Source: Oscillospiraceae bacterium (lineage in GTDB: Bacteria; Bacillota; Clostridia; Oscillospirales; Ruminococcaceae). From it: a DNA stretch of 64,000 nt. Below are positions 9,236-56,928 of the stretch, piece after piece (position 1 is the stretch's first letter; every line of letters starts with the position of its first letter). The DNA lies in the NCBI GenBank assembly GCA_009778115.1, contig WRKL01000003.1, positions 1-64,000 on the forward strand, read 5' to 3'. The notes beneath the pieces are model-generated. The model saw only the letters and a program-made list of their open reading frames with translations. It did not search any database and was not told the origin of the DNA. The translations under genes were made by a program, and so were the position numbers.

Positions 9236-9666
9236 ATGGAAAACACAGAAAAATTGAAACAGGCAAATTGCCGCTTACCGACGAGCAAGCAAGCGAGGTA
9301 TCGGGCGGCATAGACAGTGCGGTAGTTTCTGCATGGCGCAAGGTAGCGGAAGGCGAAGGCTGCCCCACTCATGCAGGTTGCAACGACGTCGGCGCGTTTT
9401 ATTATACATGGTATAATGCGAAATGCCCCAAATGCAATGCCCCCGAGAGTTTGTTCTGCCGAACTATGATAGCAGGGAAACTGAATAATGCTGTGTTTAA
9501 TAAACAACCCGAGAATTTCGAGTGTATCGACACAAAATGCTATGTCTGCAATTATCTCTTCGGCACTTGTGAACTATCAACCGGAGACAGACAAGGGTAT
9601 ATCCAAAACTGGGGAAGATGCCAGCATAAAAATTCAACCCACGGGGCGGAAGTCCCGAAAAAATAA
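9236..9666 (+). pseudogene. Cys-rich double-glycine leader peptide (bacteriocin-like) with a frame break
   Basis: The ATG at 9236 has a perfect AGGAGG nine bases upstream and starts MENTEK, but its frame closes at 9313. The leader continues in the -1 frame: LPLTDEQASEVSGG from 9268, then a core of about 118 residues with ten cysteines (CPTHAGC, KCPKC, FCR, FECIDTKCYVC, GTC, GRC). The -1 frame has no usable ATG. One more A in the run of five A at 9249-9253 would join both parts as MENTEKIETG followed by KLPLTDEQASEVSGG. So this is a recent frameshift, a sequencing error in a homopolymer, or slippage-controlled expression. The VSGG end is the cleavage site type of C39 peptidase exporters, and one is encoded at 11614. 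Cys pairs CxxC suggest metal binding or disulfides. Confidence 0.7.
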
Positions 9667-9695
9667 AAAATGAAAAAATTTAGGAGAAAAACGAA

Positions 9696-10478
9696 ATGAA
9701 AAAAATAATTTCAATAATAATGGCGGTTATGTTAATTTCGGGTTTACTTACCGCTTGCGATGTCAATGTTCACCCGAACAATTCGGTTATAGGAGCTGAC
9801 GGGGAAGTTATAGAACCGGAATCAAGTGGCACAGAGCCCTCTAATGAATCTTCTAATGAGTCAAACCCGAAACTCCCTGTAATAGAGGAAAAAGTTCTCA
9901 CTCAAATAGATCTCGAAAACGAAGGCAGAGTCAATGCCGAATATGTATTACTCAGCGGGCTGGAACATGACATTAAACTGCAAGGCAAAATAAACGAAGA
10001 AATACAAACATTTTGTACCTGGCCGACCTTTAACCGTGACAACGACGACAAAAACATCACCGTAAAAGTCGAATACGCTATAATCGGTAACAAGTATATC
10101 AGCATACGGGCGGCTGATTCGGTGTATGCAGACGGTGCGGCTCATCCCGAAAACAACTACAGAACCGCTACGTTCGATTTGGAAACAGGCGAACACGCGG
10201 GCAGTCTGATTGCATTTTCGAATGCGGGAGATGAATTGCGGAAGAAAATCACCGACGGCACTTTCAAGCAGATTTTCCCCGAAGAACCCATTGACGGCGC
10301 GGCGGAAGTTTTGGCGGCGGAGTTTGATGTAGACAATTTCTACCTCACCGAAGACAGTTTAGGCCTGTTTGTCACAGACCGTCCTCACGCGGCGGGAAGC
10401 TACTGGATTTTCGAGGCGAAATACAGCGACATTACGACATTGGTAGGCGACAGCTATTTTATGAAGTATGTTAAGTAA
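9696..10478 (+). CDS. Lipoprotein with a DUF3298-like domain (second copy)
   Basis: 260 residues with lipobox LTAC (Cys21). A Ser/Glu-rich linker (about 35-70) precedes an extracytoplasmic domain with the order ISIRAADSVYADGAAHPEN, then TATFDLETGE, then FKQIFPEEP, as in DUF3298 proteins. It is a paralogue of the lipoprotein at 4444. It lies 29 bases after the Cys-rich peptide gene, behind AGGAG. It may protect the producer or sense the exported peptide, but no direct evidence exists. Confidence 0.8.
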   Translation: MKKIISIIMAVMLISGLLTACDVNVHPNNSVIGADGEVIEPESSGTEPSNESSNESNPKLPVIEEKVLTQIDLENEGRVNAEYVLLSGLEHDIKLQGKINEEIQTFCTWPTFNRDNDDKNITVKVEYAIIGNKYISIRAADSVYADGAAHPENNYRTATFDLETGEHAGSLIAFSNAGDELRKKITDGTFKQIFPEEPIDGAAEVLAAEFDVDNFYLTEDSLGLFVTDRPHAAGSYWIFEAKYSDITTLVGDSYFMKYVK

Positions 10479-10526
10479 AACAACTTATTCGGCATAATTG
10501 CCCATAATAGAAAGGCGGATATTCCA

Positions 10527-10985
10527 ATGAAAAACGAATTTTTTAAGAGATTATCGGAAGATAAGGAATTCGAAGCAACCTACAAAAAATTTGAAACTAT
10601 AGAAGCTGTTTTAGAGCAGGTGGAAAAAGACGGTTATTCAATTTCGGAAGAAGTCGAATCGTTACGCAGTCAAGCCGAATTCAATCAGACAGGGCGCGTT
10701 GAACTTGATGATGCTATGTTGGAAAATATCGGCGGCGGTTTTTTGTTCCCGCAGTCTTTACTGGATTGGTTCGTTTCTTTATTCAGATACAGCGGGATAG
10801 GAGCAAGCGGGCAATCTTCGCTTGTCAATTCGGAAACTTCTGCCCCCGCCGTTAAAACCCTCGAAAAAAATTCGGCGGTTCAACCGACTGTACTCCCGCT
10901 CCCAAATGTTACGGGAACTCCTACACCTACAACCCTTCCCTTCAATCCGGCAGGGGGTAAATCAAACAAGTCAATAAATTTATAA
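10527..10985 (+). CDS. Nif11-like leader peptide precursor, Pro/Thr-rich core
   Basis: 152 residues. Residues 1-70 look like a Nif11-type helical leader (FFKRLSEDKEFEATYKKFET, then KDGYSIS), ending ELDDAMLENIGGG, a double-glycine cleavage site. The core of about 78 residues starts FLFPQSLLDWF and becomes rich in Pro, Thr, Ser and Asn, with no cysteine; so neither lanthionine nor disulfide chemistry is expected. No modifying enzyme (LanM, YcaO, radical SAM) is encoded in the cluster. It probably is a substrate of the C39 exporter at 11614. AAAGGCGG precedes the ATG. Confidence 0.75.
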   Translation: MKNEFFKRLSEDKEFEATYKKFETIEAVLEQVEKDGYSISEEVESLRSQAEFNQTGRVELDDAMLENIGGGFLFPQSLLDWFVSLFRYSGIGASGQSSLVNSETSAPAVKTLEKNSAVQPTVLPLPNVTGTPTPTTLPFNPAGGKSNKSINL

Positions 10986-11002
10986 TGAGGTATTAAGCTT
11001 AA

Positions 11003-11037
11003 ATAAGAGATGAGAAGAAAATATTCTCATCTCTTAT
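11003..11037 (+). terminator. Hairpin after the Nif11-like precursor gene
   Basis: A 13-bp stem (11003-11015 with 11025-11037) with a nine-base A/T loop, not followed by a T run. It may act as a weak terminator or stabilise the precursor mRNA. Confidence 0.5.
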
Positions 11038-11057
11038 CGGTGTCGGAAAGGGGCGTT

Positions 11058-11162
11058 ATACTAATCCCACATTAAAATCATCGTTTCAAACTTCGTTCGT
11101 CATTCGTTTTTCTTAAAAAACTACTCACTCGTTTTCAACGGTTTTTAAAATGGGATTAGTAT
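11058..11162. mobile_element. Family B miniature inverted-repeat element, copy 1
   Basis: 105 bp bounded by ATACTAATCCCA and its inverted copy TGGGATTAGTAT. It is nearly identical, in opposite orientation, to the copy at 30803-30907. It has no coding capacity. No target duplication is evident at this copy. It sits directly before the HlyD-like stub. Confidence 0.85.
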
Positions 11163-11171
11163 TATAAAAAA

Positions 11172-11372
11172 ATGAAAAACAAATTATTTCGTAAAGAAGC
11201 GGTGGAAAAAATAACCGGACCCGAAGATTTGAACGCATACGTCAAGGTGCTCAATCCCCGTGTATGGCTTATTCTTGCCGGAATTGCGGTCGCTTTTGGC
11301 GGGCTTGTGGTTTTTGTGGCTTCTACCGGATTTCCGATTTGGGATTTATTCTTCGGCGGTATGGGAGGATAA
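11172..11372 (+). pseudogene. Stub resembling the N-terminus of an NHLM-type HlyD secretion protein
   Basis: 66 residues: KLFRKEAVEKITGPEDLNAY, VKVLNPRVWL, one membrane helix, then a stop after FFGGMGG. The pattern FRKEA-x-E, PE-x-L, and N/S-PR-x-WL directly before the helix is what I recall for the start of NHLM bacteriocin secretion proteins (HlyD family), which are normally several hundred residues. Here the gene ends one codon before a family A element (11373) and starts ten bases after a family B element, so truncation by element activity is likely. A natural short membrane protein remains possible, as a Gram-positive cell does not need a periplasmic adaptor. No clear Shine-Dalgarno sequence. 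Confidence 0.55.
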
Positions 11373-11608
11373 TAGACCTCCTCGGAAATTAAAACGTGAT
11401 GTATGAACACAGATGATTTTTCGTCAAACAAGGCAATTTTGACGAGAATATCATGGATATTTGAGGATAAATTAACACCGTGTGACGGGAAATTTTCCGT
11501 TCATATGTCGCGAAATGGTTTTCGGCAATGCTAGGCAGACGACCGCCGCTGTACATGGGTACTGTAAGGTAAGATAACTGCGCAATGTGCGATTTACGAG
11601 GAGACCTA
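11373..11608. mobile_element. Family A inverted-repeat element, longest copy (236 bp)
   Basis: It begins TAGACCTCCTCGG and ends CGAGGAGACCTA, its inverted copy. Internally it holds a TCGTCAAACAAGG...TTTTGACGA hairpin shared with the copies at 40904 and 54513, plus about 70 bases near the right end not seen in other copies. The right end supplies GAGGAG, the apparent ribosome binding site of the exporter gene at 11614. Confidence 0.85.
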
Positions 11609-11613
11609 ATGCT

Positions 11614-13758
11614 ATGCCCAAAAAATGCCCTGTAATATTGCAGCTTGAAATAGTTGAATGCGGCGCGGCTTCCCTTGCTATGGTAATGGCTTACCATAGC
11701 AAGTGGGTGCCGCTTGAGCGTGTCCGGACGGACTGCGGTGTTTCCCGTGACGGAAGCTCGGCAAAAAATCTTTTGCAGGTGGCACGGCTCTACGGCTTTA
11801 AGGCGCAGGGTTACCGCGTTGAGCCGTCTCAAATCCACACAATTCCAATGCCCTGTATTATCCATTGGAACATGAACCATTTCGTGGTGCTGCGCGGTAT
11901 CACCAAAAAATTCGCCTATATAAACGACCCCGCAAAAGGCGAAGTAAAGATACCGATCGAACAGTTTGGCACCTCTTTCACCGGCATAGCCATCGCCATA
12001 ACTCCGGGAGAGAATTTTGAACCTTCGGGCAAGCCCGTCAGCATTTGGCCGTTTGCTAAATCACGCCTGAAAGGCACGGCTCCGGTCTTCTCGTTTATCA
12101 TTATTATCAGTGCTATGACTTCTGTTATAGGGATAATATCGACAATGTTCAGCCGTGTGTTTGTGGACGATCTGCTTTCCGGCAACCGTCCCGAATGGGC
12201 ATATGGATTTATAGTGTTGTTTTTGGCGTTTAATTTTCTCAGTATTCTATTGACCGTCATCAATACAAAAAGTAATTCGAAAATCACAGCCAAATTCGCG
12301 GTGGTTTCAAGCGGAATGTTTATCTGGCACGCTCTGCGATTGCCTGTAGATTTTTATTCCTCACGCAACGCAGGCGACATCGCCGCACGACAGGACGAAA
12401 ACGATGGTATATCCCTGTCGCTTATACAAATGTTCGCACCACTGTTTATCGAGGCGGCAATGATGGTATTTTACTTGTTTATCGTGCTTCAATACAGCGT
12501 CCTGCTTACAATAATCGGATTTGTGTCGCTTGTGATCAATTATGCTGTCAATAAATTTATCACCGACAAGAACGTCAACATTTCCCGCGTATCCTCCCGT
12601 GATGCGGGCAAGCTGGGCGCTATGACGGTAGCAGGCGTGGAAATGATAGAGACCATCAAGTCGGCAGGCGCGGAGGACGGTTTTTTTGAACGCTGGTCAG
12701 GGCTTCACGCTTCGGTAAACAATACAAGAATAAAGTCGATGAAACTGAATATTTCGGCGGGGATGATTCCGCAAATAGTAAGCGAAGTCATAAATATTAT
12801 TGTTTTGCTGATCGGCGCGTATTTAATTATCAAGGGTGATATGACAATCGGCATATTCTTCGCGTTTCAAGGGTTTTTAAGCGCGTTTCTTGCACCTTTA
12901 TCCACAATCATAAACACACGATTGCAAATGCAGCAGATGAAAGTGTCAATGGAACGGGTGCAGGACGTGTTTAATTATAAACCCGATGTGACATATACCG
13001 AACAGTCGGAAGTTGATGATGAACAATCGTTTTTCAAATTATCGGGGGAACTCGAGATCAAAGACCTCACATTCGGGTATAACAAATTATCGCCGCCGCT
13101 TTTGGAGAATTTTAACCTGACGTTAAAGCCCGGCGAAAGCGTTGCACTTGTCGGGGCTTCGGGCTGCGGGAAATCAACAATCGCAAAGCTCATCAGTAAC
13201 CTTTACAAGCCGTGGAGCGGAGAGGTCCTGTTTGACGGCAAAACCGCCGATGAAATATCGCGCGAAATCTTTACAAGCTCGGTGTCTGTCGTTGATCAGG
13301 ATATTATACTCTTCAAAGACAGCGTAAGCAATAACATCAAAACATGGGACAAATCTATCGAGGATTATGAAGTTATACTTGCGGCGCGGGATTCGCAAAT
13401 TCACAAAACGATTATCGAGCGCGACAGCGGTTACGATTGTGAGATTTTGGAGGGCGGCAAAAACTTTTCCGGCGGCGAACGCCAACGTCTCGAAATAGCA
13501 GGCGCACTTGCCAAAGACCCGACTGTAATTATTTTGGACGAAGCCACAAGTGCGCTCGATGCGAAGACAGAATACGATGTGATCAACGCCATAAAAAACA
13601 GAGATATTACAACGGTTGTAGTCGCGCACCGTTTGTCAACAATTCGTGACTGCAACGAAATCATCGTGCTTGACAAAGGCAAGGTGGTACAGCGGGGAAC
13701 TCATGACGAGTTGTACGCCGTGGAAGGTAAATACAGAGAGTTGGTGAGCTTGAATTGA
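11614..13758 (+). CDS. NHLM-type ABC exporter with C39 peptidase domain
   Basis: 714 residues from the ATG at 11614; an in-frame GTG at 11587 would read through the family A element, so I reject it. The N-terminal C39 peptidase is intact: Gln10, Cys16 (IVECGAASLAM), His89 (NMNHFVVL) and Asp105 (INDPAKG). It is followed by six membrane helices (about 150-430) and an ABC ATPase with Walker A GASGCGKST, signature FSGGERQR and Walker B VIILDEATSALD. It cuts double-glycine leaders and exports the core; candidate substrates are encoded at 9236 and 10527. Its ribosome binding site lies in the end of a mobile element. The last four bases overlap the second exporter gene. Confidence 0.92.
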   Translation: MPKKCPVILQLEIVECGAASLAMVMAYHSKWVPLERVRTDCGVSRDGSSAKNLLQVARLYGFKAQGYRVEPSQIHTIPMPCIIHWNMNHFVVLRGITKKFAYINDPAKGEVKIPIEQFGTSFTGIAIAITPGENFEPSGKPVSIWPFAKSRLKGTAPVFSFIIIISAMTSVIGIISTMFSRVFVDDLLSGNRPEWAYGFIVLFLAFNFLSILLTVINTKSNSKITAKFAVVSSGMFIWHALRLPVDFYSSRNAGDIAARQDENDGISLSLIQMFAPLFIEAAMMVFYLFIVLQYSVLLTIIGFVSLVINYAVNKFITDKNVNISRVSSRDAGKLGAMTVAGVEMIETIKSAGAEDGFFERWSGLHASVNNTRIKSMKLNISAGMIPQIVSEVINIIVLLIGAYLIIKGDMTIGIFFAFQGFLSAFLAPLSTIINTRLQMQQMKVSMERVQDVFNYKPDVTYTEQSEVDDEQSFFKLSGELEIKDLTFGYNKLSPPLLENFNLTLKPGESVALVGASGCGKSTIAKLISNLYKPWSGEVLFDGKTADEISREIFTSSVSVVDQDIILFKDSVSNNIKTWDKSIEDYEVILAARDSQIHKTIIERDSGYDCEILEGGKNFSGGERQRLEIAGALAKDPTVIILDEATSALDAKTEYDVINAIKNRDITTVVVAHRLSTIRDCNEIIVLDKGKVVQRGTHDELYAVEGKYRELVSLN

Positions 13759-15965
13759 ATTGGTTTGAAAATCAAGTCAAAAATCGCATGAAAAATGACG
13801 AGGATGATTTTTCGGGTGCGTTCGCCGAACTTTCTTCTATTGTTATGGGCGAGACAGCGGCGAAAGCAGGACTTGTCACCGCACGGCAAAAGACCCATAA
13901 CGCCGTGCAGGAAATATTAAAATTTTTCGGACAGGACATAATACCCGTCCCCGAAAGTGTTACCGACACATCGGAATACATAAACTTCTGCATAAAACCG
14001 TCCGGCATTATGAAACGCAAAGTTGAACTGAGCGGTAAATGGTGGACGGATGCTTTCGGTCCGATGCTCGGCTTTTTAAACCACCCCGGCACCTCCAAGG
14101 AGGGGAACAGCGTTGTTGTGGCGCTTTTGCCGTCACAGAAAGGGTATTCCTACTTTGATTATGAGAGCGGTAAGAAAGTCGTACTTAATTCCGAGACCGC
14201 AAAAAACATAGAAAGTTTCGGCTATTGCTTTTATAATCCGTTCCCGAATCGTGAGTTGTCTATCATTGATTTAGTTAAATATATGTTCAAAACCGTAACG
14301 AGAAACGACATGTTTTTCTATCTTTTCATCATGACCGTGACCACGCTTATGGGGCTTATCCAACCGAAAATATCACTAATTTTGTTCTCGCACATCATAC
14401 CTCAGAGCAATGCGAGCGTGTTGTGGGCTCTCGGTGTATTGATGATTTCGATGGTGTTCGCGACACAGCTTTTGGGGATAGGGCAAAGTTTGATTATGAG
14501 CCGGCTTACCATGCGCCTGTCAAACACAATCGAACCCGCCGCCATGATGAGGATGCTGACCCTCCCCGCCGAGTTTTTCAAGAAATATGCAGCCGGGGAG
14601 CTTTCCCAGAAGTTTTCACTGATCCCGTCAATTTGTAGTACGATTTTTTCGGTCGTCACCGGAACACTGTTAACTTCGCTGTTTTCGCTTGCGTACTTCA
14701 CGCAGATTGCAAACATCACTCCCGCATTAATGCTGCCGTCATTAGCAATTATCGGCACGACACTTGTTATAAATATTATCACCACATTGGCAAGTATACG
14801 AATACAGAAGAAATCATTGGAAGCGGGTGCAGATTTGTCCGGCATGACTTATTCCATCTTGTCGGGCATACAAAAAGTCAAACTGACCGGCTCGGAAAAG
14901 AGGATTTTCGCGCAGTGGGCATTAAAGTATAAAACCTCTGCTAATTTTACTTACAATCCGCCGTTTGTGTTGAAATATTCGGGCGTAATCAGCACTGTTA
15001 TTTCCACTATCGGGATTGCCGTTGTTTATTTTTTCGCCATTCAGTCACAAATGGGCGTCGGCGAGTATATGGCGTACAACACCGCTTATGGCATGGTGTC
15101 GGCTTCTATTTTGGCTCTCGGTTCAATTACCACCGTTTTTTCAGGGTTAAAACCGCAGCTTGACACAGTAGCGCCGTTCATGAAAACCGTCCCCGAAATA
15201 AGCGGGAATAAAAAAGTTGTAACAAACCTTTCAGGCGGCATCGAAGTACAGAGTTTGACCTTCCGTTATGATGAGGGCGGCAAGAATATTCTCAATGACA
15301 TTAATATTAAAATCCGCCCGGGACAGTATGTGGCGATCGTCGGTAAGACCGGCTGCGGAAAATCTACATTAGTACGGCTTTTACTGGGTTTTGAAAAGCC
15401 GAATAAAGGTGCGGTTTACTATGACGGCAAGGATATATCCAAACTTGATTTACCGTCACTCCGCCGCAAAATCGGAGCGGTTATGCAGGGCGGTAAACTG
15501 TTCACAGGGGATGTTTGGGGTAATATTATTATATCCGCGCCCAACCTGACAATGGACGATGCGTGGGCGGCGGCGCGGATCGCGAGCATTGACAAGGATA
15601 TTGAGGATATGCCGATGGGTATGCACACTATTATAACCGAGGGCAGCGGCGGCATTTCCGGCGGGCAAAAGCAGCGGTTGATGATTGCACGGGCTGTTGC
15701 GTCGAAGCCGAAAGTGCTGATTTTTGACGAATCTACAAGTGCGCTCGACAACATCACGCAAAAGCAGGTAGCCGATGCATTAGCGGGTTTAAAATGCACT
15801 CGCATTGTAATCGCACACAGGCTGTCCACGATCAAAGACTGCGATAAAATTTATGTATTAGATGGCGGCAAAGTCGCCGAAGAAGGCACATTCGATGAAC
15901 TCTACGAAAACAAAGGATATTTTCACGGGCTCGTAAGCCGGCAGATGCTTGGTGAGAAATTATAG
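13755..15965 (+). CDS. NHLM-type ABC exporter, second subunit
   Basis: 736 residues from a TTG at 13755 overlapping the first exporter by four bases. Residues 1-165 are a family-specific N-terminal region without C39 catalytic residues. About six membrane helices follow (190-450), then an ABC ATPase with Walker A GKTGCGKST, signature ISGGQKQR and Walker B VLIFDESTSALD (catalytic Glu kept). The size and two-domain form match the ATP-binding partner that accompanies the peptidase exporter in NHLM loci. The two very likely form a heterodimer. Confidence 0.9.
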   Translation: MNWFENQVKNRMKNDEDDFSGAFAELSSIVMGETAAKAGLVTARQKTHNAVQEILKFFGQDIIPVPESVTDTSEYINFCIKPSGIMKRKVELSGKWWTDAFGPMLGFLNHPGTSKEGNSVVVALLPSQKGYSYFDYESGKKVVLNSETAKNIESFGYCFYNPFPNRELSIIDLVKYMFKTVTRNDMFFYLFIMTVTTLMGLIQPKISLILFSHIIPQSNASVLWALGVLMISMVFATQLLGIGQSLIMSRLTMRLSNTIEPAAMMRMLTLPAEFFKKYAAGELSQKFSLIPSICSTIFSVVTGTLLTSLFSLAYFTQIANITPALMLPSLAIIGTTLVINIITTLASIRIQKKSLEAGADLSGMTYSILSGIQKVKLTGSEKRIFAQWALKYKTSANFTYNPPFVLKYSGVISTVISTIGIAVVYFFAIQSQMGVGEYMAYNTAYGMVSASILALGSITTVFSGLKPQLDTVAPFMKTVPEISGNKKVVTNLSGGIEVQSLTFRYDEGGKNILNDINIKIRPGQYVAIVGKTGCGKSTLVRLLLGFEKPNKGAVYYDGKDISKLDLPSLRRKIGAVMQGGKLFTGDVWGNIIISAPNLTMDDAWAAARIASIDKDIEDMPMGMHTIITEGSGGISGGQKQRLMIARAVASKPKVLIFDESTSALDNITQKQVADALAGLKCTRIVIAHRLSTIKDCDKIYVLDGGKVAEEGTFDELYENKGYFHGLVSRQMLGEKL

Positions 15966-19444: not shown

Positions 19445-19678
19445 ATGAAATCCGCTAAAACTCCCGAAAAATTAGCGGAATTGAAAGCCGAGCGGGATGA
19501 CTTGTCAGCAAAAATTAAAGATGTTCGTGCGGATTTATTTTTAGCGGGCGGCGTTCAAAAAGAGCATAGGGAAATACGAGGTAAAATCTTAGCGCAACGG
19601 GAGTTGGATGCCCGGCGGCTTGAAGCCGAAAAATCCAAAACACAAAATATTATGAAGGATAGAGGTTATTCACGATGA
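19445..19678 (+). CDS. Coiled-coil protein, probable C-terminal remnant of an element gene
   Basis: 77 residues, almost entirely charged helix (PEKLAELKAERDDLSAKIKD). The same frame is open for 19 bases upstream of the ATG (R-S-K-V-Y-N-R) to a TAA and then loses meaning, so the gene probably is the tail of a longer protein of a conjugative element. The upstream ORF region joins directly to the AlbA_2-type fragment on the other strand, suggesting a deletion junction near 19400-19425. Its stop overlaps an in-frame start of the ParB-like gene. Confidence 0.5.
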   Translation: MKSAKTPEKLAELKAERDDLSAKIKDVRADLFLAGGVQKEHREIRGKILAQRELDARRLEAEKSKTQNIMKDRGYSR

Positions 19679-19806
19679 CAGAGAAAACAACCAAAACCAC
19701 GTCCGCCGCTGATACGGCGGATATTTTATTGTCCGCTGAAAAAGCAGACAAAGGTATTACACCCACCCTAAAAACAAAAACAACAAAAATCAAGGAGGAC
19801 AACACT

Positions 19807-20664
19807 ATGCAAAATGAAAAAATTATATCCCTGCCGCTTAACAAATTGGCGGCGTTTGAGAACCACCCATTTCAAGTGAAGCAAGATGAGGACTTTCAAA
19901 AACTTGTTGACAGTATCAAAGAAAACGGAATTTTAATCCCGGCGGTCGCTCGCCCGATTGGGGACGGCTATGAGTTAATCGCCGGACACCGTCGCAAATT
20001 CGCCTGCCAAATCCTCGGCATTGAAGCCATGCCGGTACTGGTTCGGGAATTAACCAACGAACAGGCGGTTATCGCGATGGTGGACAGCAACGTTCAGCGG
20101 GAGAATATCCTACCAAGCGAAAAAGCGTTTGCTTATAAGATGAAGTTGGAGGCGATAAAAAAGCAGGGAAAAAGGACAGATTTAACTTCTGTTCCAGTGG
20201 GGCAGAAGCTGGCGAGGAGCGTAATTGCAAAGGAAAATGGCGAAAGCCAAAGCCAAATACAGCGATATGTACGGCTGACTGAGCTGATTCCAGAGTTATT
20301 GCAGTTAATTGATGACGGTAAAATCGCTTTTCGCCCCGCGGTTGAATTATCTTATCTGTCAAAAGAACAGCAGACCCTGTTGTTATTAGCAATGGAAGCC
20401 GAGCAGTCAACGCCATCATTGTCGCAGGCGCAGAAACTCAAAGCTATGAGTGCCGAGGGTGCATTGACCGAGGATTCCATGATGGAAGTAATGCGGGAGC
20501 CGAAAGCTAACCAGAAAGAACAGGTGCGTATTCCGTATGATAAAATCAAGGCTATCACCAAAAAAGATATGCTTCCGAAGGAATTAGAAGATTTTGTTTT
20601 AGAAGCTGTTAAACGGTATCAATCCTATTTGAACCGACAAGCCAAAGATAAAGGCGCCCGCTAA
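19807..20664 (+). CDS. ParB/RepB/Spo0J-family partition protein
   Basis: 285 residues. ParB N-terminal domain: PLNKLAAFENHPFQV, DSIKENGILIPAVARP, the CTP-binding GHRRKFA and NVQRENILPSEKA; then the helix-turn-helix region SVIAKENGESQSQIQRYVRL. I choose ATG 19807 because AGGAGG lies seven bases before it and the conserved domain starts there; an ATG at 19675 overlapping the upstream gene adds 44 low-complexity residues. ParB relatives of this form are common in Tn1549-type integrative elements, where they help maintenance. No ParA is nearby. Confidence 0.88.
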   Translation: MQNEKIISLPLNKLAAFENHPFQVKQDEDFQKLVDSIKENGILIPAVARPIGDGYELIAGHRRKFACQILGIEAMPVLVRELTNEQAVIAMVDSNVQRENILPSEKAFAYKMKLEAIKKQGKRTDLTSVPVGQKLARSVIAKENGESQSQIQRYVRLTELIPELLQLIDDGKIAFRPAVELSYLSKEQQTLLLLAMEAEQSTPSLSQAQKLKAMSAEGALTEDSMMEVMREPKANQKEQVRIPYDKIKAITKKDMLPKELEDFVLEAVKRYQSYLNRQAKDKGAR

Positions 20665-20814: not shown

Positions 20815-21042
20815 TTGGAAATTAACGTTGATAACGATTTGCGCCTTGTTAGTGTTTGGCTTACTAACGCCGAAAAGCAAAACAAAAGCGTTAGACAAGA
20901 GCTAAAAGCACTTTGTGAAAAAAACAAAGAACGTAAGTATAAAACAGCCCTTATGCTTTCGGGTGAGCGAGATTTGGTAGATTGCACACAAAACCTTTTG
21001 TTGCACAACAGATACCCAAAATCGCAGGGGACAAGCCGATAG
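20815..21042 (+). CDS. Small hypothetical protein of conjugative-element type
   Basis: 75 residues from a TTG at 20815 behind GAGGACGGTGA. It starts EINVDNDLRLVSVWLTNAEK, then a charged helix and a Cys in DLVDCTQ. I recognise the general type as a small gene found in Clostridial conjugative elements near ParB-like genes, without a known function. It ends just before the hairpin shared with the convergent ATPase gene. Confidence 0.55.
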   Translation: MEINVDNDLRLVSVWLTNAEKQNKSVRQELKALCEKNKERKYKTALMLSGERDLVDCTQNLLLHNRYPKSQGTSR

Positions 21043-21076: not shown

Positions 21077-22459
21077 TTACATACCATCATAGCTTATAAG
21101 CGTAACATTTCCCATTTTATCTGCCCGTTCCATACAACCGACTGTGAATCCGTTTTTGGCAAAAAGATAAAAATATTTCTTACCGAATGAAAATAAGTTG
21201 CTTCGCTCGACAAGTGTTTCCAACGTAGACAAATCCACATCATCATTCGTCCATTTGCACTCGCAGAAGATAGCGGTATCCTTGTCGGCAGTAGCTAAAA
21301 TGTCAATCTCCGCTTGTGTTTGGTTTTCGGGGTCATTGCCCCACCAACGCCCCAAATCCATGAAGGTAACAGCGGCTTTACCCTCACGGTTGAGCTTCCA
21401 AAGATACTGCTTGCAAATTTCCTCAAACACCGCGCCCATATACGACGGCAGATGCTCAGATATATTTTTGTAAGCAACCTCAATCATTACGTTTTGAATC
21501 ACCGACATATTACCCGGCACAAACCGATACCAAAAGCGGAACATATTATCAGCGATGACATAAATAGTTTTTTTGGATGTCTTTTCGGTGATCGGCGTTT
21601 CTTTTTTGATAATACCGAGGGAGATTAAGTTTTTCAGATATGCAGAGCAGGCACTTGTTTCCTCGCCGACCTTGCCCGATATTTCCGAAAGTTTGGTGCT
21701 GCCGGTAGCGACTGCTGTAATGATTGCGTTATAAATTGCAGGCTCACGAACCTCTTGTTTCAAGAGATTATTCGGCTCTTCAAACAAATAGGATGTAGTT
21801 TTAAGAAAATTGTTTTTAATGTTATCCTCTACGCTCAGACTGTCGTTCATCTGCAAAAGATACTGCGGAGTGCCGCCGACAATACCGTATATTAACGCCA
21901 TATCGAGAGCGGAAAAATTCTTGAAATAACGGCAGCACTCAAAGAAATCAAAGGGCAATACTTTAAGCTGTGCCGTTCTTCTGCCGTAAAGCGGGCTTTT
22001 ATAACCGAGAACTTTCTCCTCCATAAACGACATTGACGAACCGCATAAAATCAAAAACATATTTGATGTATCCTTGTATTTATCAATCAGCACTTGTAAA
22101 ACCGAAGCGAACCCCTTGTATGATTTGGCGACATAGGGGTATTCATCTATGACCAACACGATTCGTTTTTCTTTTGATAAAGCAAAAACATACTCCAATG
22201 CCACCCCGAAATTCTGAAATACCGGAGCCGTGCCAAAGCCGCTCGTGTAATTAAAAACCGCTTTGCTGAAATTTTCGAGGTTTTGTTTGGAATTTGTTTC
22301 AAGCCCGGTAAAAAATATCGTGTCCTTGCCCTTAACAAATTCGTTTATGAGCGCGGTTTTACCCACACGGCGGCGACCGTACATAACAGACATTTGAAAT
22401 TTACCTGTTTCGTATAGCTCATTTAATTCACTGAGTTCTCGATTTCTTCCTACAAACAT
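21077..22459 (-). CDS. AAA ATPase of the archaeal-type / DUF234 family
   Basis: 460 residues. It begins MFVGRNRELSELNELYETGK with Walker A GRRRVGKT (28-35) and Walker B LVIDEYPYV (about 100-108). A winged helix follows (TKLSEISGKVGEETSACSAY) and a DUF234 nuclease-like C-terminal domain with ETQAEID-type residues (NQTQAEIDILATADKDTAIF, then ECKW), resembling a PD-(D/E)XK core. AGGAGGA lies before the start. The family is common on mobile elements; role unknown, possibly defence or regulation. Three CTAAGATA-type boxes sit in its promoter. Confidence 0.85.
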   Translation of the reverse strand: MFVGRNRELSELNELYETGKFQMSVMYGRRRVGKTALINEFVKGKDTIFFTGLETNSKQNLENFSKAVFNYTSGFGTAPVFQNFGVALEYVFALSKEKRIVLVIDEYPYVAKSYKGFASVLQVLIDKYKDTSNMFLILCGSSMSFMEEKVLGYKSPLYGRRTAQLKVLPFDFFECCRYFKNFSALDMALIYGIVGGTPQYLLQMNDSLSVEDNIKNNFLKTTSYLFEEPNNLLKQEVREPAIYNAIITAVATGSTKLSEISGKVGEETSACSAYLKNLISLGIIKKETPITEKTSKKTIYVIADNMFRFWYRFVPGNMSVIQNVMIEVAYKNISEHLPSYMGAVFEEICKQYLWKLNREGKAAVTFMDLGRWWGNDPENQTQAEIDILATADKDTAIFCECKWTNDDVDLSTLETLVERSNLFSFGKKYFYLFAKNGFTVGCMERADKMGNVTLISYDGM

Positions 22460-22617: not shown

Positions 22618-24795
22618 TTGCAACAGAAATTAAATATAGCCGCCTACTGTCGTATATCAGTAGACGAAGAAATGGATAGGGAAAATACGTCTATCGAAAA
22701 CCAAAAGTCCATAATTGAAGACTTCGTGAAGCGAAAATTCCCCGGTTCTACTCTTGATTTTTACGAAGACCGCGACCGTTCCGGTTATACTTTTGAGCAG
22801 CGGGAGGGATATCAACAGCTCCGTCCACAGCTGATGGATTTGACCTACGACATCCTGATCGTCAAAGACTTCTCCCGTTTCTCCCGCCGCAACAGCAAAG
22901 GATTGGTGGAGTTAGAGGACTTGCGTGACGCCGGATTGAGAATTATTGCCATCGGCGACAGCATTGATTATCCTACTTACGATGACTGGACGGCGATACA
23001 ATTCCGTTTCCTTATAAATGAAATGCCGGTGACTGATACCAGCAAAAAGGTCAAGTCTGTTATCAAGCGGCGGCAGAGCGAGGGTAAATGGATTTGCTCC
23101 GTGCCGTATGGCTACGTCATCACCAACAGCAAAACGATGGCGTTTGAAATGGACGAATCTTCCGCTGAGGTAGTGCGTCAGGTTTTTGAACTTTATAATG
23201 GCGGTTGGGGTTATAAAAAAATCGCCAATCACCTCACAGATAAAAACATCCCCACACCAAGAATGACGGAGAAACTGCGAAAGGAAGCGAAGGGTGAGGA
23301 ATACAGAGCCGAAGTCAAGCAGGCTTGGAGTATCGTAACCATATCTGAAATCTTGTGCAACGATTTTTATATTGGCACTCTGCGGCAGGGGAAATATAAA
23401 CGCAAAAAAATTAACGGCTCAGATGTAAAGACCGACGAAATGGATCATGTAGTATTTGAGAACAACCACGACCCCGTCATTGATTACCGCACCTTCGCAG
23501 TCACGCAGGAGCAGTTGAAACAACGCTCAACATCCCACTACCGTGGGATAAGAAAAAACGACAACGTATATTCCGGTTTTATTTATTGCGGTGATTGCAA
23601 CAATCCCATGTTCGCCATGAGCCGCCGGGATTTGAAACCCGCTTACACCTGCGGCACGTATCATTCGCGAGGGCTGAAAGGATGCACATCCCATCACACG
23701 CGGGTAGATGTACTGGACAAGCTGCTTAAATCATACGTTGAAAAAGTGCGGGATAGCTCAAAGGATATGTTAGACAAGCTGAATGAATCACTGAAAAATG
23801 AGCAGGAGGTTGTCAAAGAAAGCACCACATCGTTGGAAATTTTGCAAAGCCAGATCGACGATGCCCGGCAGGAAATGAAAATTCTTACCCGGCAGCAAGC
23901 GAAAGAGATAGCCCGAAGTCCGGACAGGGAGACTGTCATAGATGGTATATACCGCGAGATGTTGGACGAGTTAGCAGACAGGGTTGACGGGCTGACCCAA
24001 CAACTTGAATTGACATCCGATCGGCGAAACACTATCATACGGGTCAATCGCATCGCAAAAACCGCATTGGACATCTTCGATGACATCCTTAATAAAGAAA
24101 AGCTGGACAAAACGGACTTGCAACTCATCATTGATCGAATCGTCGTCTACGAGGACAGAATCGAAATCCAGTTAAAAGCAGACATCGACACCATCCTCAA
24201 AACAGGAACCATCCCGGAGGACGCGCTAAATTTTCCGCATGACACTGGGGATATCGAAAGAGCCGCATACCAAAGCGGCAGCCTGATCCAAAAAAGCAGG
24301 AACCATTTGGATAAGGTTCTCAGTGTCCATGTTATCAGCAACGGCGACCCGCTTGAAATTTATACAAACAACGAGGGTGAAGTAATTTTCAAAAAATACA
24401 GCCCCATAGGCGAGATAGCGAATTTCGCATCGCAGTATGCTGATGTTTTGAGTAAAACCGGAAATATGCCGGCGATAGTGTGCGACAAGGACCATGTTAT
24501 TGCGGCGGCAGGCATCCCCAAAAAGGAAGTACTGGAACGACGGGTTTCCGGAGCGCTCGAGGATATAATGGAATCGCGTAAAACTTATATCCACGAAAAC
24601 GGAAATGCGAAACCGTTGAAACCGATCGAAGGGATGGATAAGCATACGCTGGTATGCGCACCTATCGTAACGGCGGGCGATGTCGGTGGCGCGATAATGT
24701 TTATGTCAACCGACGAAGTAGGAGTCGCTAACGAAACTTTGAATAAGCTCGCACAGTCGGCGGCATTGTTTATCGGAAAGCAAATGGAAGAATAA
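22618..24795 (+). CDS. Large serine recombinase fused in frame to SpoVT (residues ~31 to end)
   Basis: 725 residues from a TTG start. The N-terminal resolvase domain has the catalytic Ser14 (YCRISVDEE) and the DFSRFSRRNSKG motif; a recombinase domain (SEGKWICSVPYGYVI), a zinc-ribbon (CGDCNNPMF, TCGTYHSRGLKGC) and a long coiled coil follow to about 500. From Gly576 on (GDPLEIYTNNEGEVIFKKYSP) the protein is SpoVT to its normal end (FIGKQMEE): the second half of the AbrB domain plus the GAF-like sensor domain. The first ~30 residues of SpoVT are missing. Inference: an element integrated inside spoVT, with the attachment core near 24343-24362; excision would restore spoVT. The other spoVT half is not in the window. 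Confidence 0.9.
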   Translation: MQQKLNIAAYCRISVDEEMDRENTSIENQKSIIEDFVKRKFPGSTLDFYEDRDRSGYTFEQREGYQQLRPQLMDLTYDILIVKDFSRFSRRNSKGLVELEDLRDAGLRIIAIGDSIDYPTYDDWTAIQFRFLINEMPVTDTSKKVKSVIKRRQSEGKWICSVPYGYVITNSKTMAFEMDESSAEVVRQVFELYNGGWGYKKIANHLTDKNIPTPRMTEKLRKEAKGEEYRAEVKQAWSIVTISEILCNDFYIGTLRQGKYKRKKINGSDVKTDEMDHVVFENNHDPVIDYRTFAVTQEQLKQRSTSHYRGIRKNDNVYSGFIYCGDCNNPMFAMSRRDLKPAYTCGTYHSRGLKGCTSHHTRVDVLDKLLKSYVEKVRDSSKDMLDKLNESLKNEQEVVKESTTSLEILQSQIDDARQEMKILTRQQAKEIARSPDRETVIDGIYREMLDELADRVDGLTQQLELTSDRRNTIIRVNRIAKTALDIFDDILNKEKLDKTDLQLIIDRIVVYEDRIEIQLKADIDTILKTGTIPEDALNFPHDTGDIERAAYQSGSLIQKSRNHLDKVLSVHVISNGDPLEIYTNNEGEVIFKKYSPIGEIANFASQYADVLSKTGNMPAIVCDKDHVIAAAGIPKKEVLERRVSGALEDIMESRKTYIHENGNAKPLKPIEGMDKHTLVCAPIVTAGDVGGAIMFMSTDEVGVANETLNKLAQSAALFIGKQMEE
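24343..24362 (+). other. Probable attachment-site core (attR) at the recombinase-spoVT junction
   Basis: These bases encode Gly-Asp-Pro-Leu-Glu-Ile, where recombinase-specific sequence changes to SpoVT sequence. In large serine recombinase systems the crossover core is shared by attL and attR, so a short copy should be present at the element's left end. I did not find one in the window; the exact core cannot be set from one end. Confidence 0.45.
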
Positions 24796-55422: not shown

Positions 55423-56928
55423 ATGGCAAATAACAATCCTATATTTCGCTCCTTAGAATTTATCGAAAACCAAATCTCAGAAAAATTGACCGTTAAAAAT
55501 ATCGCAGACAACATTTATTTTTCCAAACATCACTATTCCCGCTTGTTTCATGAAATTGTCGGAGATAGTGTGATGAGATATGTAAGCAGGCGGAAACTAA
55601 CCCTTGCCGGCAAAGCTTTATTGGAAACCGATGCGAACATAATCGACATTGCGATGGATTACGGTTATAATTCCCGCGAGGGGTTTTCGCGGAGCTTCAA
55701 AGCGTATATGGGTGTATCGCCTACGGAATACAGAAAATACGGTCTTACCTATATAAAACAAAATATAATAAAGGAGCGGTCAAGTATGGCTTATTCAAAA
55801 ATCACCGACGAGATTGTCCGGGAACTTAACGGCTTTATCGTTATAGCAAGAGAAACGGCCGACCATGCCCGAAAATGTGATGTGCAACCATACAAAGCAT
55901 TTTGGGAGCATATTGCAAGCAGAACTGACGACTTAGCTGATAGGTTAAAATTCGCACTGGAACGTATTTCCATTATCGCAGAGCGTTCCGACGAAATCAC
56001 CGCCCGGCTTGCAATAATAAAAACTCTGGAAAATATTAACTTTGAGTCAAGCCTAATGTGCTTTAATATAAAGCTCATGATTTCGCGGGGAAAAGCGGAG
56101 CATATAGAATATCAAATGCCATTATGCCGTAAGTTTGAAGAGTTAGCATATGCCGCCGGGGGTAAAACGGAAAAGATAGTGCAATATTTCAACGAATTGG
56201 CGGCTCTTATATTTAAAGATATGAAAAAAGCTGCTGCCGGAAAAATCGAAGAAGTTATTTGTAAAGGAAGATCCGCTGCTGATAACATTAACGGCTATCC
56301 TTGCATAAAAGAGGAAGTAACAAGCAGGGTAAAAGAACTTTCGATACCGATCGGGGAGATTACAGAGACGTTATTAGAAGATTGTCTGTTTAAGCTGGAT
56401 ATAATTATTTTCGCGGCAGATATGGAGATATTCCGCAGCGGCGGCGCGGATAAAGAAATGTTTGATGGGTTAAAATCGTTCAATGAAAGCCTTTCGGATG
56501 CAATCGAATTTTTCCGTTCTTTATCAAATATACCGTCTATACCGGAGATATCGGAGAATAACCCTGTTTTAGAACGTACAATCCGCAAGCGTTCCGCCGA
56601 CATAGCATATCAAGGGAACATAATGCTTTTTTACACAAAAAGCGAAATAGAGAAGCTGACGGGCGTTCGGTCAAGCAGCGAAAGTTTGCTAAACGATAAG
56701 CAAAAAGCCGATTTTAACGAAATTTGCGGAATGATGGACGATTTTATCCGGTTTTCGTATAATGCCGATAATGAAGCGGCGTATAAGGAACTCAAAATTA
56801 TGGCAACGAATATTTATCACGCATTAGACAGGCAAGCAGATATATTAAACAGTTATGGCGGCGCAGTCAGATTTTTGGGAAATGAATTTAAATTTTTAGC
56901 GGACAATTTAACGGGCATTAAGCTTTGA
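55423..56928 (+). CDS. AraC-family regulator with a long helical C-terminal region
   Basis: 501 residues from the ATG at 55423 (AAGAGGTG is nine bases upstream). The double helix-turn-helix AraC domain is N-terminal (about 5-108): LTVKNIADNIYFSKHHYSRL, then DIAMDYGYNSREGFSRSFKA and GVSPTEYRK. The remaining 390 residues are alpha-helical with no clear domain. An N-terminal AraC domain is the reverse of the classical order. Divergent from the ECF S component and located before the rhamnose genes; either could be its target. Confidence 0.85.
   Translation: MANNNPIFRSLEFIENQISEKLTVKNIADNIYFSKHHYSRLFHEIVGDSVMRYVSRRKLTLAGKALLETDANIIDIAMDYGYNSREGFSRSFKAYMGVSPTEYRKYGLTYIKQNIIKERSSMAYSKITDEIVRELNGFIVIARETADHARKCDVQPYKAFWEHIASRTDDLADRLKFALERISIIAERSDEITARLAIIKTLENINFESSLMCFNIKLMISRGKAEHIEYQMPLCRKFEELAYAAGGKTEKIVQYFNELAALIFKDMKKAAAGKIEEVICKGRSAADNINGYPCIKEEVTSRVKELSIPIGEITETLLEDCLFKLDIIIFAADMEIFRSGGADKEMFDGLKSFNESLSDAIEFFRSLSNIPSIPEISENNPVLERTIRKRSADIAYQGNIMLFYTKSEIEKLTGVRSSSESLLNDKQKADFNEICGMMDDFIRFSYNADNEAAYKELKIMATNIYHALDRQADILNSYGGAVRFLGNEFKFLADNLTGIKL

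Follow-up and report, generated by a model that had tools for sequence, protein, structure and literature searches.

An open reading frame of 725 codons in an Oscillospiraceae genome (positions 22618–24795) raises the question of how a site-specific recombinase comes to end in the sequence of the sporulation regulator SpoVT, and whether the acquired segment serves the recombinase. The frame lies in a 64,000-nt stretch of DNA that was analysed as a whole and is termed the window here; it corresponds to C3:1-64000 and starts at base 1 of contig C3. The answer proposed, which is considered highly probable, is that the window contains the attR of a site-specific mobile element integrated in spoVT, with attP and attB in the same phase, so that crossover exchanges C-terminal tails. 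In relatives, the element boundaries, a dyad in attP, the in-frame exchange of tails, repeated independent integration and conservation of the native tail at the protein level are established by comparison of sequences.

The recombinase-SpoVT open reading frame

The frame has a TTG start, is read on the + strand and contains no stop codon. Its translated sequence displays the Pfam domains Resolvase (aa positions 7–158), Recombinase (182–303) and Zn_ribbon_recom (318–373), followed by SpoVT_C at aa positions 599–724 (E-value = 1e-36). The NCBIfam SpoVT model TIGR02851 aligns aa positions 573–724 of the fusion with model positions 27–180, and the SpoVT structure PDB 2w1t matches positions 573–725. 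The SpoVT portion extends from the codons for GDPLEIYT to the normal SpoVT end. An earlier note, made from the window sequence alone, had described an in-frame serine recombinase-SpoVT fusion with a catalytic Ser14; the open frame and the Pfam, NCBIfam and PDB matches confirm the fusion, and Ser14 is present without exception in 36 fused proteins. Its placement of the SpoVT start near residue 31 also holds (about 31–34), whereas the mere loss of a DNA-binding strand does not describe the junction, which cuts the AbrB-type domain in two.

The fusion has the parts of a large serine integrase, i.e. a catalytic domain with its active-site Ser, a recombinase domain, a zinc ribbon and a coiled coil. 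An AF2 model displays long helices at aa positions 363–492 and an ordered SpoVT domain behind a disordered/flexible linker; model confidence is low (mean pLDDT 68.5, pTM 0.30), and it served for domain limits only. By curated profile the best named relatives are the large serine recombinases CcrB/CcrC and XisF, but membership in either group is rejected, as the scores are far under the curated cut-offs (122 of 900 bits and lower). The recombinase has 53–68% identity to eight fused relatives. The two closest recombinases (77 and 76%) come from MAGs labelled Oscillospiraceae and Bacillota. An assembly chimera or a chance junction is ruled out, as dozens of further genomes have the in-frame junction at this very codon; a complete replicon and isolates are among them (e.g. 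R. bicirculans 80/3 chromosome II and A. massiliensis AT3). Features of the window are listed in Table 1.

Table 1. Coordinates of the element and of its predicted features in the window
Feature	Positions	Strand	Basis
Probable extent of element in contig; left end (attL and spoVT 5′ half) beyond contig start	1..24347	.	No 5′ half in contig or assembly; bounded relatives
ParB/Noc-like partition protein, probably element-borne	19675..20664	+	Pfam and NCBIfam
~75-aa protein of a small family; candidate directionality or accessory factor by position	20815..21042	+	Usually adjoins recombinase
ATPase_2/DUF234 protein, probably cargo	21077..22459	-	Pfam; homologue in G003 element
Element-encoded large serine recombinase part, to core; start TTG	22618..24342	+	Pfam Resolvase/Recombinase/Zn ribbon; identity of relatives
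attR: P arm GTCCATGTTATCAG (24325-24338) and core GGCGACCC (24343-24350)	24325..24350	+	Same arm and core in relatives
Predicted crossover dinucleotide GA	24346-24347	+	Dyad centre of rebuilt attP
Host spoVT 3′ part (AbrB domain end, GAF-like sensor domain, natural stop), forming recombinase C-terminus	24343..24795	+	SpoVT_C, TIGR02851, model

The two parts of spoVT in related genomes

Seventeen relatives (G003, G064, G201, G294, G415, G418, G422, G424, G425, G426, G430, G433, G437, G438, G442, G443 and G444) carry two spoVT halves on one contig and on the same strand, 11–57 kb apart. One example is G003, from another genus and 99% complete. Its spoVT 5′ half has CGAAGGCGACCCGTT as its last bases; these 15 bases recur 32.8 kb onward, within a 700-codon recombinase-SpoVT gene. 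Joining the halves in seven genomes gives a spoVT of normal length (179–181 codons), and the joined sequence of G201 displays 82% identity to the intact SpoVT of its genus. In relatives, a sporulation gene is thus split by an element that has short repeats of a core; the window offers the right half only. Because relatives show both halves flanking inserts, the window fusion is assigned as attR by homology. The 5′ halves and the shared core bear out the proposal of the earlier note that the element integrated within spoVT and has its recombinase at the right-hand end. A separate intact spoVT with no 5′ half at any attL, which would speak against integration, is not the pattern found, as 5′ halves are present in relatives.

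The spoVT 5′ end and a second copy of the core, expected to the left of the window, are found in relatives but not in the contig or the assembly of the source genome (1.45 Mb in 87 contigs, 65% complete), in which the window lies at a contig start. No second SpoVT C-part is present in this 65% complete assembly either. A match to the SpoVT N-terminus on C51 of the source genome belongs to an AbrB paralogue that has a C-part of its own, and is not the missing half. The window has one attL-like site, with two mismatches, at position 56267 on the other side of spoVT; this was judged a chance match. In G001, a genome of the same genus, spoVT is intact.

Occurrence of the fusion and its repeated formation

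A scan of 84,980 genomes yielded 431 relatives of the recombinase. Among the best 80 of these in named genomes, 73 have the in-frame fusion at the same codon (70 closed fusions and three that run off the contig inside SpoVT). The others are L161 and L163, located at spoVT with a frameshifted recombinase; L130, with an inverted junction; L159 and L167, with native-type tails in spoVT-anchored arrays; and L126/G416 and L146/G427, which have an odd end and an intact spoVT in the same genome. In the order to which the window belongs, the recombinase is present in 23 of 295 genomes (E-value below 1e-200), in about 20 of them in frames of at least 700 codons. One of the three shorter copies is a SpoVT fusion cut by the contig end. 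In the other two, L259:2292-4256 (G544) and L258:692-2536 (G603), the core GGCGA is joined to unrelated sequence, and in G544 the recombinase continues in frame for about 90 further codons past this core. Both junctions appear to represent rare integration at other sites. The spoVT-fused recombinase is thus a widespread integrase family of gut and rumen Clostridia, and is not peculiar to the source genome.

Close pairs of fusions show that these were not inherited as a unit. In L151/L153 the recombinase parts differ by a dS of 0.01 and the SpoVT parts by a dS of 0.97, and identity breaks at the core. In L145/L148 the recombinases are about 99% identical and the SpoVT parts about 80%, again with the break at the core. 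Near-identical recombinases are thus joined to diverged SpoVT parts, from which it follows that the fusion is re-made at each integration.

Several rearranged copies were also observed. In L251 (G420 C11) the P arm is followed by the spoVT 5′ half in antisense, by inverted orientation or a rearrangement at the core. L167/L242 (G436 C12) has a native-type tail slightly unlike the attL tail of the same contig, which ends there; this suggests two related elements arranged in tandem in spoVT. Extra copies, 207–245 bp in length, of the spoVT upstream region and 5′ half are present in L111/L112 (G349 C25), L236 (G426 C12), L239 and L252 (G431 C107). In G431, where the extra copy is joined to the 3′ half, the gene is whole again downstream of the element; such copies look like secondary units that restore spoVT.

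A search of plasmids gave distant recombinases only. The 4.2-kb virome contig MT839487.1 ends just ahead of the P arm, which is a hint only. Four IMG/VR entries (L203-L206), catalogued as viral, contain the recombinase at 59–67% identity, at least three with the SpoVT fusion; some of these are probably non-viral integrated elements.

Reconstruction of attP and the exchange of tails

The attP was rebuilt from the element-side arms of attR and attL of the same genome; in G064 it reads GTCAATGTTATCAG-CAGCGGTGACCCGTTA-CAGATAACATTGAC. Large serine integrases are expected to have an attP dyad around a central dinucleotide, and this is found in 25 relatives: the dyad match of the rebuilt attP is 0.715 when centred on the GA of GGCGACCC, and 0.13–0.37 at other centres. 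The attB gives a dyad match of 0.39 at the same GA centre. An intact attP was not found in 397 genomes of the family, nor was a circular excised form or an unoccupied site observed within the same strain.

The attP sits within the reading frame of the recombinase, in phase with attB, and integration therefore swaps tails. As read from the rebuilt sites, in the free form about 21–38 residues would follow GDP at the end of the recombinase, e.g. GDPLQITLTQWERFCTGMMGLEKQIHT. After integration, the spoVT 5′ half carries the integrase tail in a frame of roughly 60 codons. Native tails collected from 29 attL sites display an amphipathic pattern (F/Y-C...hydrophobic...hydrophobic..R) that is kept past the attP arm, and their hydrophobic codons have low second-position diversity (pooled pN/pS 0.66, with synonymous sites near-saturated). 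Because of this pattern and the low diversity past the attP arm, the native tail looks selected as protein and not as DNA alone. That attP and attB agree in phase could be a historical accident with one shared origin.

Proposed mechanism

The attB would be the most conserved stretch of spoVT, the codons for Arg-Glu-Gly-Asp-Pro with the core GGCGACCC. On crossover, the integrase would give up its conserved helical tail of 24–30 residues and take the last ~150 residues of SpoVT, and the 5′ part of spoVT would take the integrase tail, yielding a peptide of ~60 residues with its AbrB domain cut. The free circle would encode the native-tail integrase, and this form would carry out integration. The exchange of tails may alter integrase activity, and would most likely hold the integrated state: the SpoVT-tail integrase would be restrained or redirected pending the action of a directionality factor, for which the ~75-aa neighbour of the recombinase is a candidate. 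Excision would then rejoin spoVT and reset the integrase tail. In this scheme spoVT would be off as long as the element resides in it and back on when the element leaves, with no mother-cell timer.

Does the captured SpoVT domain control the integrase?

A possible but doubtful alternative, raised in part by the earlier note, is that the captured domain is a sensor of host origin and gates the integrase, making the chimera responsive to a host signal and tying excision to the sporulation state of the host. In its favour are the complete SpoVT domain, in frame, in 73 of the best 80 relatives, and the predicted ordered fold of this domain after a flexible linker; the available text on engineered systems also reports that fusion of a partner to the C-terminus changes the direction of a serine integrase (PMC5737554). 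An in-frame fusion, however, follows automatically from the site and the phase, and the domain is absent from copies integrated at other sites. The conservation of the SpoVT part is older than the insertion; most of the divergence likewise predates it, so that dN/dS of this part is uninformative on the fused state. The frameshifted copies L161 and L163 are integrated at spoVT, thus the chimera is dispensable once integration has occurred. Should the sensor reading be true, each integration would give the element a read-out of the sporulation state of its host.

Comparison with skin-like elements

In Bacillus, SpoVT is a forespore regulator under sigma-G; B. cereus requires it for sporulation, and in B. 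subtilis it is important without being essential (PMC5061766). The earlier note had suggested a skin-like element, with excision in the mother cell or in a subpopulation restoring spoVT. Precise excision during sporulation that supplies SpoVT when it is needed is rather unlikely. The hosts look like spore formers, since spoIVA is kept in 24 of 25 genomes with a split spoVT; this leaves loss of sporulation by the host unsupported as a cause of the tolerated split, and agrees with a developmental role. Both spoVT halves remain open and conserved, but a sharp signal of recent transfer can alone explain this. Elements in sigK, spsM, gerE and yabG work by excision in sporulation or are thought to do so, according to the available text of the reports (PMC5595907, PMC4191935, PMC10747680). 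The target of such an element is needed in the mother cell, so that its loss is not inherited; by the literature this does not apply to spoVT (PMC5061766), and excision in the mother cell is not borne out by the 397 family genomes either, none of which has an intact attP. Residence of a mobile element, with passive restoration of spoVT on its exit, is favoured, because mother-cell excision would not supply SpoVT to the forespore, and forespore excision would be heritable and cure the lineage.

The likeness to the skin-type elements of sigK, gerE, spsM and yabG is that a serine recombinase element splits a sporulation gene at a short repeated core (PMC5595907, available text). In the same available accounts, those of known timing act in the mother cell, unlike spoVT, a forespore gene, and none is said to fuse its recombinase to the target gene; the spoVT elements are known here from sequence.

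That a SpoVT-like domain belongs to the recombinase family independently of integration can be dismissed: fusions occur often (about 20 of 23 order-level matches are in frames of at least 700 codons), but the spoVT 5′ half at the other element end (the attL partner) and the identity break of close pairs at the core rule out an intrinsic domain or vertical inheritance, and some copies have native-type tails or are at other sites.

Related systems and significance

The spoVT elements offer a natural case in which integration itself appears to rewrite the integrase. One parallel is phage Mx8 of Myxococcus, whose enzyme is a tyrosine integrase. In Mx8, attP lies in the int coding sequence, and integration creates a new 3′ end and an altered enzyme (PMC6070905). 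The native tails and the new ends described above show the same arrangement, an attP inside the integrase gene whose end is exchanged on integration. The new end in Mx8, however, is not described as a host sensor domain, and there is no reciprocal split of a sporulation gene (PMC6070905). Engineered fusions of a serine integrase with its recombination directionality factor (RDF) also join a partner protein to the integrase (PMC5737554; PDB 9dxd); as far as the available descriptions go, these are man-made and use the phage's own directionality factor, whereas the spoVT elements capture a host protein by integration itself. In the literature searched, no description of tail exchange at spoVT and no paper on spoVT as an insertion site was found; work beyond it may exist.

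As a widespread insertion site, spoVT joins the few sporulation genes split by mobile DNA; about 8% of the sampled species of the order (23/295) have the recombinase. Many Clostridia of gut and rumen, among them cultured isolates, have the split gene, and this affects predictions of spore formation from genomes. Pairs of native-tail and SpoVT-tail proteins form a natural series for asking what sets the direction of a serine integrase.

Genes carried by the elements

In 40 of the 55 loci that have sufficient flanking sequence, the gene for the ~75-residue protein lies upstream of the recombinase. The protein displays the motif VEIWLTNAEK...KKY.VAVF.SG..DL...T..LL.HN (homologues e.g. L125:2564-2758 and L123:2694-2891) and matches no Pfam or PHROG family and no credible NCBIfam one. 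By position only, it is the best candidate for the directionality factor. The homologue of the ATPase_2/DUF234 protein in the G003 element is L046:16900-18291, the likeness being judged by eye.

Other contents, named from open reading frames, vary by element, e.g. type I restriction systems (G294, G003) and polysaccharide genes (G201). A relaxase is present in the G294 element and NikA/MobC in that of G442; to judge from gene content, the element is mobilizable in at least some relatives. No relaxase or mobilization gene was recognised among the scanned open reading frames of the window, where the left end of the element is missing.

Window positions 9268–15965 contain an open reading frame for a Nif11-like leader peptide and two ABC exporters, of which one carries a C39 peptidase domain, and are a probable peptide-export locus inside the predicted element. 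In the G003 element (L047:740-9215), the specificity genes of a type I restriction system are duplicated in inverted orientation on either side of a tyrosine recombinase gene, an arrangement that is likely a phase-variable specificity switch.
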